This document shows, piece by piece, positions 41,052 through 45,133 of a stretch of 52,568 nucleotides of DNA (positions are counted from its first letter, which is position 1; each line of letters opens with the position of its first letter). The position numbers were made by a program, and so were the translations under genes. A model generated the notes under the pieces. That model ran no database searches and was not told where the DNA came from. It saw only the letters and a list, made by a program, of their open reading frames with translations. Source of the stretch: Longimicrobiales bacterium (lineage in GTDB: Bacteria; Gemmatimonadota; Gemmatimonadetes; Longimicrobiales; Gaopeijiaceae); assembly GCA_028823235.1 (NCBI GenBank), contig JAPKBW010000021.1, positions 1 to 52,568 on the forward strand. Direction: 5' to 3'.

Positions 41052-42349
41052 ATGGGCTGAGACTGGCTCCACCTCAGGCAGTCGTGTGGATTACGCAGAC
41101 ACTTGAGGATTCCCAATTCGAGACATGGGCTGTTGGCGGTGCGGTGCGGGACGCTCTGATCGGCCGAGCATCGGGAGATTGGGATATCACGACCCAGGCG
41201 ACACCCTCGGAGGTTCGCAGGCTTTTCCGTCGGACCGTGCCGATCGGCATCGAGCACGGCACGATCGGAGTTATCGCGCGCGATGGTGTGATGTACGAAG
41301 TGACGACGTTTCGGAGAGACGTTGAAACGGACGGTCGACATGCTGTCGTGGCCTTTGCCGATACCCTCGACGAGGATCTCGGGAGGCGGGACTTCACCAT
41401 CAACGCCATCGCGTGGCACCCCCTGACCGACGCCTTCGCTGATCCGTTCGACGGTGCGAGCGACCTGGAGCAAGGAACCGTGCGGACCGTAGGAAGTCCG
41501 AATGAGCGCTTCCGAGAGGACTACCTGAGAATTCTTCGCGGATTCCGTTTTGCCGGGCGTTTCGACTTCGACATCCACGAGGATACCTGGTCCGCGTCGT
41601 GCGATCTGGTGCCGCAGCTCACGTCACTGTCGCCCGAACGGATCCGCGAAGAGTTGCTCAAGATTCTGGCCACGCACTCGCACCCTAGCCGAACACTCGA
41701 ATTGTATCGCGCCTCGGGTGCGGTCGGTGTGCTGTTCCCTGAACTCGAGCGCCTCTCGGTCCCGGAACCGAAGTCCGCGCCAGGGGAAACCTCGGTCGAG
41801 TGGAAGGGTGCACTCGCCACGATAGACGTGCTCCCCGTGGGCCGGCCTCATCTTCGCCTTGCCGGGTTGCTTCGGGGGCTGTCGCCCGATGAAAGCGCCG
41901 CGATCCTAGTTCGGTTGAAGCTCTCGAACATCGTAACCGATGCAGTCGCTCGGCTGGCTGCCGCTTCGCCACTCCCGGGGGCCGATGAGACGGACGCCGA
42001 TGTGCGGCGTTGGTTAAGCCGCCTTGGCGCTGACCGCATGACTCTCGTAGCGAGGCTCGATCTCGCCGAGGCACGCACACACTCAGGAGCGGAACCCCGG
42101 CCGGCCGCCATCGTGGAGCGCTGGCAGAGGGCTCGGGCCATCCTTCGGAGCACGCCCCCGCTCACGGTAGGGGCCCTGAAGATCGATGGTAGAGGACTTA
42201 GGGCGATGGGGTTGAAGCCAGGGCCTATCTTCGGTGAGATCCTCGACCAGCTGCTGGAGGAGGTGTTGGAGGAACCAGTGCTGAATGAACGGACGGCTCT
42301 CGAACGCCGGGTGGCTGAGATCAGCGCACAGCGGAGGTCTGATGGCTGA
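41048..42349 (+). CDS. cca: CCA-adding tRNA nucleotidyltransferase
   Basis: This class II nucleotidyltransferase adds CCA to tRNA 3' ends. The 433-residue protein has GGAVRD at residues 30-35, the metal pair DWD at 44-46, RRDFTINAIAWHP and the flexible region RILRGFRFAGRFDFDIHEDT. The C-terminal body domain is less conserved. The one tRNA gene in this window lacks an encoded CCA, consistent with a need for the enzyme. It overlaps gmhA by four bases and rarA by eight. Confidence 0.96.
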   Translation: MNGLRLAPPQAVVWITQTLEDSQFETWAVGGAVRDALIGRASGDWDITTQATPSEVRRLFRRTVPIGIEHGTIGVIARDGVMYEVTTFRRDVETDGRHAVVAFADTLDEDLGRRDFTINAIAWHPLTDAFADPFDGASDLEQGTVRTVGSPNERFREDYLRILRGFRFAGRFDFDIHEDTWSASCDLVPQLTSLSPERIREELLKILATHSHPSRTLELYRASGAVGVLFPELERLSVPEPKSAPGETSVEWKGALATIDVLPVGRPHLRLAGLLRGLSPDESAAILVRLKLSNIVTDAVARLAAASPLPGADETDADVRRWLSRLGADRMTLVARLDLAEARTHSGAEPRPAAIVERWQRARAILRSTPPLTVGALKIDGRGLRAMGLKPGPIFGEILDQLLEEVLEEPVLNERTALERRVAEISAQRRSDG

Positions 42350-43745
42350 TCTCGATCTCTTTGCGGGAGACGGGCCGTCCAGTTCAGGCGCCGGCAGCGA
42401 AACCCATGGGTCGGCGGATATGTCAATCGACAGGTCGGCTCCTCTCGCGGCCCGAATGCGACCTCGGACGCTCGATGAGTTCCGTGGCCAGGATCACCTT
42501 CTTGGGTCGGGGCGAGCCGTCCGAGCGATGCTCGCCTCCGGACATGTAAGCAGCATGATTCTCTGGGGACCGCCGGGTAGCGGAAAGACGACACTCGCCC
42601 GGCTCGTCGCGGCGGAATCCGGGGTCATGTTCGTGCCGTTCAGCGCGGTCACTGAAGGTGTGGCTCGAGTTCGCGAGATCATTGGCGAGGCAGGGCAGCG
42701 CCTGAAGGCCACGGGCCGACGGACGATACTCTTCTGCGACGAGATTCATCGTTTCAACAAGGCGCAACAAGACGCATTTCTACCCCATGTCGAGGCCGGG
42801 ACGATCATTCTGGTCGGGGCTACCACCGAGAATCCCTCGTTCGAGATCGTTCGCCCGCTGCTTTCTCGTGCTCCGGTATACCTGTTGGAGGCCCTTCAAC
42901 CCGACGAACTCGAATCGATTCTCCGGGATGCGCTCTCGGCTGAGCATGGTCTGGCCGACTTGGGCGTCGAAGCGTCTGATGAAGCCCTTCGCTTTATTGC
43001 CGAGGCCGCGGACGGAGACGCCCGGCGCGCCCTCGGAGTGCTGGAGGCCGCGGCCCAACTCGCAGGTGCTGGCGGTGACCTTGGAGTCGAAGCGGCTCGT
43101 GAGGCCCTGCAGCACCGCTTCGCGACGTACGACAAGAGCGGGGAAGAGCACTACAACCTCATCTCAGCCCTTCATAAGTCGATTCGGGGCAGCGACCCGG
43201 ATGCGGCGCTGTACTGGCTCGCCCGGATGATCGATGGGGGAGAGGACCCGCTGTACATCGCTCGCAGGCTTGTCCGGATGGCGGTTGAAGATATCGGCCT
43301 GGCCGATCCGGCGGCACTCACGAACGCCATTGTGGCACGGGAGGCGTACCAGTTTCTCGGATCACCGGAGGGTGAACTCGCGATTGCCCAGGCCGCGTTG
43401 TATCTCGCCACGGCACCGAAGTCGAACCGGGCCTATGCGGCGTGGAAAAGCGCGAAGAGAAGGGCTCGCGAGACTCCATCGGCCCCCGTCCCGTTCCACA
43501 TTCGAAATGCTCCGACGGGCCTCATGAAGGACCTTGGGTACGGGAAGGGCTATCAGTACGATCCGGAGTCTGAGGACGGAATTTCCGACCAGACCTACCT
43601 GCCGGAAACGCTTTCTGGGGAGCGGTATTACGAACCGGGACGCTTCGGCTTCGAGAAGACCATCCGAGAGCGTCTCAAGTGGTGGGGAGAACGGCGCGGA
43701 AGTCTCGAGATTCCGGGTGATCAGAAAGGCTCAGAGGAAGCGTGA
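42342..43745 (+). CDS. rarA: Replication-associated recombination protein A (RarA/MgsA AAA+ ATPase)
   Basis: RarA is a clamp-loader-like AAA+ ATPase acting at stalled forks. Walker A GPPGSGKT is at residues 76-83, Walker B is [10 protein letters not shown] at about 131-140, and sensor 1 lies in [15 protein letters not shown]. The MgsA C-terminal domain shows [20 protein letters not shown] and [20 protein letters not shown]. The end has [14 protein letters not shown]-type GKGY. ATG 42342 has GGAGG seven bases upstream. A ~35-residue Ser/Gly-rich lead precedes the core. Confidence 0.96.
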
Positions 43746-43831
43746 TCGCCCCTATGGACCGATGGCTTCCTTGGGTATCGTTCAGGGGTACTCCTCTCGG
43801 GAATCGGTCCTGCCTGGACCGGAGGTGAACG

Positions 43832-45133
43832 ATCCCGACGCAACTCATCGATCTTCAGACTCCTGTTGACCGGGTCGTCCTCGTCGGCGCCCCTTCACGG
43901 ACGCTGTCCCGCGATCTTGCCGATGAACATCTGCTCGAACTGGGCCGCCTCACGGACACAGCCGGTGGCGAGGTTGTTGGCGAACTCACGCAGCGCGTGC
44001 ATTCGCCGCACGCGCGTTTCTATCTAGGGGAAGGGAAGGCGAAGGAACTCAAGGCGCTTGTTGAGGAAGCCGAGGCTGACCTGGTCGTCTTCGACGAGGA
44101 GCTGAGTCCTGCCCAAGGAAAGAATCTGGAGCAGCTGATCGACGTCAGGGTGATGGATCGCTCTGAGCTGATCCTCGACATCTTTGGGACCCGTGCAAGA
44201 TCTCGAGAGGCTCGCATGCAGGTCGAGCTCGCCCAGCTTCAGTACTTACTTCCTCGTCTTAGTCGGATGTGGAAGCACCTGTCTCGGATTCGAGGCGGAA
44301 TCGGTCTCCGCGGGCCCGGTGAGACGCAGCTGGAAACCGACCGTCGGTTAATTGGGACCCGAATCGGCGAACTCCGTCGTAAGCTGAAGGCTGTAGCCAA
44401 GGCACGGGCTGTTCAGCGACAGGGACGGGAAGGCTCGTTCAGAGTTTCGCTCGTCGGGTACACAAACGCTGGGAAGTCTTCGCTGCTGCGGGCGCTGTCT
44501 GGGTCGGATATTTTCGTAGAGGATCGGCTGTTCGCGACCCTCGATTCGGCCACGCGCAGTGTCTCTCTCGGGTCGGGCCTTGAGGCACTGATCACCGACA
44601 CAGTCGGCTTCATCCGGAAGCTTCCCCACCACCTGGTTGCCTCATTTCGCTCGACCCTGGAGGAGGCTCAAGAAGCGGACGTGCTACTCCACGTCATCGA
44701 TGCCTCACACTCCGACTGGGAAGAACAGCGCGCGGTTGTGCTTGAGGTTCTCCATGACCTTGACCTCGACAAGCGTGAGAAGATCCTCGTGTTCAACAAG
44801 GTGGACCGGATCACGCATCAGGAGGAAGATGCCTTGAGCGTCCGTATTCGCTCCCTTGATCCGACGCCGGCCGTTTTCGTCTCGGCACACGATCCAGACA
44901 CGCTCGAGGCGCTCTGCGAAACACTTCGCGCCCGGGTTCGGGGGCGCATGGCGAGTGTCATCGTGACAATTCCTGTGTCCGATGGAGAGACGATCGCGAC
45001 CGTCTACCGAGAGGGCGAGGTTCGGCACCGAACGGACGAGGGGATGGAGGTTTTGTTGACTGCAAGGGTTCCGAAGAGACTCGTCGGAAGGCTGAGCGGC
45101 CGCAGCGGTATCGTTGTGGAGGAGGTGACATGA
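43832..45133 (+). CDS. hflX: GTPase HflX (start codon unresolved)
   Basis: This ribosome-associated GTPase splits stalled ribosomes. The N-terminal nucleotide-binding region (VDRVVLVGAPSRTL; LGRLTDTAGGEVVGEL) runs into YLGEGKAKELKALVEEAEAD. The linker RIRGGIGLRGPGETQLETDR precedes the GTPase G1 GYTNAGKS (about 209-216), DTVGFIRKLPHHL and NKVD. The conserved N-terminal ~55 residues have no ATG, GTG or TTG in frame. The only canonical start is GTG 43997, inside the domain. GGAGGTGA (43821-43828) is six bases before ATC 43832, listed here as the most likely beginning. Alternatively GTG 43825 joins after a one-base indel near 43842. The end overlaps the next gene by four bases. Confidence 0.85.
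   Translation: MPTQLIDLQTPVDRVVLVGAPSRTLSRDLADEHLLELGRLTDTAGGEVVGELTQRVHSPHARFYLGEGKAKELKALVEEAEADLVVFDEELSPAQGKNLEQLIDVRVMDRSELILDIFGTRARSREARMQVELAQLQYLLPRLSRMWKHLSRIRGGIGLRGPGETQLETDRRLIGTRIGELRRKLKAVAKARAVQRQGREGSFRVSLVGYTNAGKSSLLRALSGSDIFVEDRLFATLDSATRSVSLGSGLEALITDTVGFIRKLPHHLVASFRSTLEEAQEADVLLHVIDASHSDWEEQRAVVLEVLHDLDLDKREKILVFNKVDRITHQEEDALSVRIRSLDPTPAVFVSAHDPDTLEALCETLRARVRGRMASVIVTIPVSDGETIATVYREGEVRHRTDEGMEVLLTARVPKRLVGRLSGRSGIVVEEVT

Follow-up and report, generated by a model that had tools for sequence, protein, structure and literature searches.

Few non-canonical start codons of bacteria have been characterised, according to the available sections of PMC5472188. In that text, infC, the gene for IF3, starts with ATT in E. 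coli and with ATC in Streptomyces and autoregulates, and the GTC start of the Streptomyces sigR gene is repressed by IF3. In poor medium, S. aureus reporters that start with AUU or AUA reach about 10% of the level seen with AUG, according to the accessible part of PMC13009471; the genes cvfC1 (AUU) and ccpN (AUA) combine such a start with an extended Shine-Dalgarno sequence, lowered output and conservation. An AUU start is also given for E. coli pcnB and, as a prediction only and in two species, for lepA, which likewise encodes a ribosome GTPase (PMC1780047, accessible part). HflX splits stalled 70S ribosomes, and IF3 prevents the free 30S subunits from rejoining the 50S subunits (PMC9067457, accessible part).

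Here we analysed the hflX gene in a 52,568-nucleotide stretch of DNA from a Longimicrobiales bacterium of the phylum Gemmatimonadota (the window). This gene resembles infC in having an AUH start (AUC, AUU or AUA) with a Shine-Dalgarno sequence and a product that acts on ribosomal subunits, and infC shows such a start in the same genomes; in contrast to infC, hflX does not encode IF3, so that control would act on the product of another gene, and a response of hflX to IF3 is a prediction. With sigR it shares a non-NUG start outside infC and the misannotation reported for sigR in available Streptomyces genomes, but the sigR codon is GTC rather than AUH and was demonstrated experimentally (PMC5472188, available sections). 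The genes pcnB, lepA, cvfC1 and ccpN share the AUH start but are other genes than hflX. The domain content and family score are those of the HflX family (TIGR03156), whereas hflX of E. coli K-12 starts with TTG (L345:1173-1175), a weak canonical codon, and ATG, GTG or TTG was present near the start in 56 of the 60 listed named loci that are not assigned to Gemmatimonadota. The kind of start is known already from infC, pcnB, sigR and ccpN, while hflX as the gene and the breadth across a class appear to be new; our literature search, whose coverage left out most subscription papers, found no description of a non-AUG hflX start.

The hflX frame of the window opens almost certainly with ATC

Read from ATC, hflX occupies 43832..45133 of the forward strand (433 codons plus stop). 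It follows a rarA/mgsA-like ORF (42285-43745, with a Pfam MgsA_C match) after a gap of 86 nt and is followed by a DUF2520 gene, whose ATG at 45130 overlaps the hflX stop TGA (45131-45133), and by pdxJ. The first-pass annotation had placed the HflX N-terminus at about 43832, six bases after a strong Shine-Dalgarno sequence, with no canonical codon in frame before GTG 43997 and with a GTG at 43825 that is out of phase. Indeed, the first ATG, GTG or TTG in frame is the GTG at 43997..43999 (codon 56). The Shine-Dalgarno octamer GGAGGTGA (43821..43828) lies 3 nt before the ATC at 43832..43834, and the six bases hold when counted from its GGAGG core. The out-of-frame GTG (43825..43827) is found 7 nt upstream of the ATC. 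Since a TGA (43826..43828), two codons before the ATC and inside the octamer, is in the same frame, no in-frame start of hflX exists farther upstream; between this TGA and the ATC there is a single codon, ACG 43829. Nearby upstream in-frame stops also occur in several other genomes.

The protein read from the ATC scored 444.5 bits with TIGR03156 (cut-off 216.75) and thus passed the full HflX model. Its N-terminal, middle and GTPase domains (PF13167 GTP-bdg_N, PF16360 GTP-bdg_M and PF01926 MMR_HSR1) were over their cut-offs, and the C-terminal domain PF19275 gave 19.7 bits at a cut-off of 26.4. The model NF008280, which we take to be the Proteobacteria-type HflX model, gave 340.3, under its cut-off of 441. 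Judged by these matches, the protein is a standard HflX of the ribosome-splitting GTPase family. The N-terminus predicted in the first-pass annotation proved to be real: purifying selection acts on codons 2-54 as it does on the remaining gene (pN/pS pooled over 11 same-genus comparisons, 0.21 for these codons versus 0.22 for the rest).

When both strands of the window were scanned for a Shine-Dalgarno sequence and an ATH codon (ATC, ATT or ATA) at the head of a long frame in which no NTG codon (ATG, GTG or TTG) comes early, hflX and two minus-strand frames (36243 and 30651) were returned, the latter two overlapping other long ORFs. A 16S rRNA gene, sought in the assembly of the window genome as a source for the anti-Shine-Dalgarno sequence, was not found.

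Start codons of hflX in Gemmatimonadota

We read hflX starts in 179 different Gemmatimonadota genomes, 173 of the window's class and six of another class. The first set of relatives comprised 98 genomes, each with some hflX match; its genomes with weak matches (G004, G009, G015, G043 and G093, probably other GTPases) or partial ones (G051, G065 and G092) were left unread, and starts were taken from its 30 best loci and from 60 others. The second set comprised 130 genomes drawn evenly from the phylum, 115 of them with a match at 1e-40, and the partial matches in G092 and G137 were left out. Ten genomes sampled twice were counted once.

The start position was defined as columns -14 to -10, counted in codons from the conserved core of the first strand. 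There, 141 of the 173 class genomes had only ATH, 22 only NTG, two had both and eight neither; the ATH state is therefore not obligatory in the class. All six genomes of the other class had NTG. The numbers with ATH, NTG, both and neither were 61, 4, 2 and 2 in group f1, 8, 2, 0 and 2 in f2, 17, 1, 0 and 2 in f3, 8, 1, 0 and 0 in f4, 0, 1, 0 and 0 in f5, 22, 2, 0 and 1 in f6, and 25, 11, 0 and 1 in f7. The main column, -12, contained ATH in 93, NTG in 13 and other codons in 73 of the 179 genomes, many of these last starting a codon or two away. At the codon matching 43832, the 30 best loci (that of the window plus 29 from its genus or family) had ATC, ATT or ATA in 29 cases and ATG, GTG or TTG in none; the sole exception, L020, has CGC. 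Where the HflX N-terminus is shifted, the ATH shifts along with its Shine-Dalgarno sequence (L056, L059 and L049), and some genomes with neither codon have ATA with its own Shine-Dalgarno sequence a few codons later (L056 and L059) or ATG at -8 (L050 and L053). At the very position where G032 has ATT, its congener G190 has ATG.

A Shine-Dalgarno-like match with suitable spacing preceded the ATH in 110 of the 141 genomes, versus 10 of 141 for a control codon ten codons downstream. By the same rule none was found before the ATH in the other 31, most frequently in group f7 (13 of 25). The codon chosen by Shine-Dalgarno strength alone in L001-L090 was often a neighbour of the ATH or lay elsewhere, and therefore we relied on the position-based count and on the Shine-Dalgarno check with the control codon; the best ATH or NTG codon with a Shine-Dalgarno sequence in these 90 loci was ATH in 66 and NTG in 5, with none in 19. 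A stricter count, requiring that no NTG be present in up to 25 codons before the core, left 80 of the 179 genomes, 77 with ATH and three with neither. This count is lower because internal Leu, Val and Met codons just before the core, as well as chance upstream NTG codons, count against ATH.

The start codons were ATC in 78, ATT in 47 and ATA in 16 of the 141 genomes, versus 351, 53 and 16 of the 420 internal Ile codons of the same genes, so that ATT and ATA are over-used at the start (chi-square p = 6e-11, not corrected for relatedness). On a FastTree tree built from up to about 100 residues, we counted at least 30 changes among ATT, ATC and ATA at the start, four ATG/ATH changes (ATG being the start in six genomes), and, inside the class, at least 15 switches between ATH and NTG, versus 19-22 in 50 label shuffles; tree errors can inflate these counts, which leave out the six outgroup-class genomes and the ten with both codons or neither.

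The 80 named loci listed included 20 assigned to Gemmatimonadota, of which 14 had ATH only, four NTG and two both. The other 60 are titled Bacteroidetes, Chlorobi, Planctomycetota, Ignavibacteria and the like, or in a few cases only 'bacterium'; 37 of them had NTG, 19 both, one ATH only and three neither. Note that the 20 and 60 loci were separated by record title (L163 by sequence) and that the codon range was wider than in the count of 179 genomes. L163, titled Gammaproteobacteria bacterium RHO2_bin_50, resembles G023 and G163, two genomes of the window's family, in its hflX start and N-terminus and is probably a mislabelled bin.

Three explanations had been offered for the missing canonical start: a non-AUG start, a one-base indel or a shortened protein. 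The first is strongly supported by the relatives through the 141 class genomes with ATH and no NTG, whereas the other two did not hold (see below). On this comparative evidence, the non-AUG start of hflX is real and is kept in most of the examined genomes of the window's class, and ATC 43832 is nearly certainly the start codon in the window. As judged from the aligned sequences, hflX shows what marks an infC-type start: no NTG at the real N-terminus and an AUH at Shine-Dalgarno distance, conserved with avoidance of AUG. Gene callers limited to ATG, GTG and TTG cut such genes short, which implies that hflX N-termini called in this way are often wrong in this class.

At 1e-40, no hflX match was obtained in 15 of the 130 phylum genomes, all of them at least 91% complete (G093, G128, G132, G134, G146, G149, G157, G161, G169, G170, G171, G180, G186, G188 and G196); hflX may therefore have been lost repeatedly. 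In G036 and G177 of genus g24 (L242 and L243), one TAG lies inside the hflX match, which may overrun the true stop.

Start codons of infC and of control genes

The infC gene of the window genome reads TAG-CGA-AAA-ATC after GGAGG. In 30 infC loci, ATH only was found near the start in 28 and both ATH and NTG in two, and in 19 of the 30 a stretch of up to 25 upstream codons was entirely free of NTG. Twenty further genomes gave ATH only in 18, NTG in one (G091) and neither in one (G093). For control genes the picture was canonical: all 30 pdxJ loci started canonically, and, in a loose test, NTG was present within 12 codons in all 29 loci examined for rplT, which adjoins infC (one locus skipped), and in all 19 examined for the DUF2520 gene (11 loci had no match).

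All nine genomes compared whose hflX is not ATH only (G026, G045, G060, G061, G066, G072, G077, G082 and G095) keep ATH in infC, and G091 shows the reverse, with ATH in hflX and NTG in infC. Therefore, the link between the two genes is not strict.

Several Gemmatimonadota genomes contain a second, divergent IF3 gene. In each of the six second IF3 genes L339-L344 (G005, G017, G052, G021, G030 and G033), the start region contains ATH but lacks NTG.

Possible control of hflX by IF3

The precedents of infC, sigR and the S. aureus genes, together with the roles of HflX and IF3, lead us to infer that IF3 represses hflX and that this hold is relaxed once IF3 runs short relative to 30S subunits. We consider it somewhat probable that HflX synthesis begins at a deliberately weak AUC codon under IF3 discrimination, which would keep HflX low and tied to IF3. 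The strong Shine-Dalgarno sequence would place AUC 43832 for initiation, and initiator fMet-tRNA would read it with a mismatch at the third base. IF3, which rejects initiation complexes on AUU, AUC and AUA, would hold hflX translation low; if free IF3 became scarce relative to 30S subunits, hflX translation would rise. Since infC starts in a like manner in these genomes, HflX, which splits stalled 70S ribosomes, and IF3, which keeps 30S subunits free and checks starts, would come under a common control at the level of translation. That a start of an IF3-sensitive kind is retained in hflX, alongside infC, through most of a class suggests that start-codon identity links ribosome rescue with initiation-factor supply, and a clear and cheap prediction follows, namely a comparison of AUC and AUG reporters with IF3 varied.

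A different reading of the same start deserves serious weight, although we give it the smaller part of our confidence: the AUH codon may be a static brake that sets a constant low HflX level and does not respond dynamically to the abundance of IF3. The ATH counts and codon changes agree with this as they do with control by IF3, and weak starts can simply lower yield, as the accessible parts of the cited papers indicate for E. coli pcnB (cited in PMC1780047) and for the S. aureus starts at about one-tenth of AUG (PMC13009471). In addition, GTG and TTG account for 16 of the 22 NTG cases of hflX in the class, and E. coli hflX itself uses TTG. However, GTG, TTG or a weak Shine-Dalgarno sequence could suffice for a brake, yet AU[not G] is kept together with a Shine-Dalgarno sequence in 110 of 141 genomes. 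The sequence data fit a static low-expression role equally well, and sequence alone cannot separate it from control by IF3.

Going further along the lines of IF3 control, hflX and infC might form a small, old regulon of the window's class that IF3 reads by start-codon identity, with feedback on the balance of free subunits; we put this forward tentatively, as a proposal about as likely to fail as to hold and leaning slightly towards the former. If true, IF3 activity would set the supply of both factors without a repressor or an RNA switch. The changes between ATH and NTG (at least 15), the infC of G091 and the 15 genomes without an hflX match were counted against a strict need for ATH.

Other start sites, sequencing error and a shortened protein

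We regard a start at the second of the conserved Ile codons (codon 6, ATC 43847), or else at ACG 43829, as very unlikely. Column -7, to which codon 6 corresponds, is ATH in 133 of 179 genomes, and five of the six genomes of the outgroup class have an ATG just before it, at -8, but the codon is 21 nt away from the core of the Shine-Dalgarno sequence, and the preceding peptide IPTQL is invariant in seven aligned family members; the ACG is replaced by AGG or CGG in the same-genus loci compared, except in L017-type outgroups.

An error of sequencing or assembly, either a base lost near 43825-43832 or an ATG misread as ATC, would be conceivable in a draft genome of 90 contigs, but it is already refuted by the relatives and its probability is close to nil. 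The ATH state is common to 141 of the 173 class genomes, and the same arrangement recurs in genomes of other species, among them single-contig assemblies (G017, G037 and G052). A GTG at the offset of 43825, which the proposed one-base indel would restore as the start, is confined to 4 of the 30 same-genus or same-family loci, one of these being that of the window.

Just as negligible is a shortened HflX starting at GTG 43997, which an ORF list restricted to ATG, GTG and TTG yields as the first canonical in-frame codon: the relatives, whose comparison had been suggested, have GTG at this position in 3 of the 30 same-genus or same-family loci, the TIGR03156 match of the short form begins at model position 43 instead of 2 with a loss of about 41 positions, alignments with the solved HflX chains 8vkw, 8vio, 8kab and 8a57 begin between query residues 9 and 15, and the codons upstream are under the purifying selection described above.

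The hflX leader

In the window, the RNA structure of the hflX leader was nothing unusual (z 0.13), and a comparison with Rfam gave no match; leader RNA structure or a known RNA family was therefore rejected as a control of hflX. A scan of the leader for the sigma-70 consensus found no promoter. About 50 bases before the ATC, the motif CT-n4-TAT-n2-TTC (43770-43783) is invariant in the five members of the genus whose leaders were aligned and could hold the -10 element of an hflX promoter. The -10-like TATCGT (43776..43781, forward strand) is only a tentative candidate because of the result of the consensus scan; its TAT and the TTC two bases on are the invariant parts.
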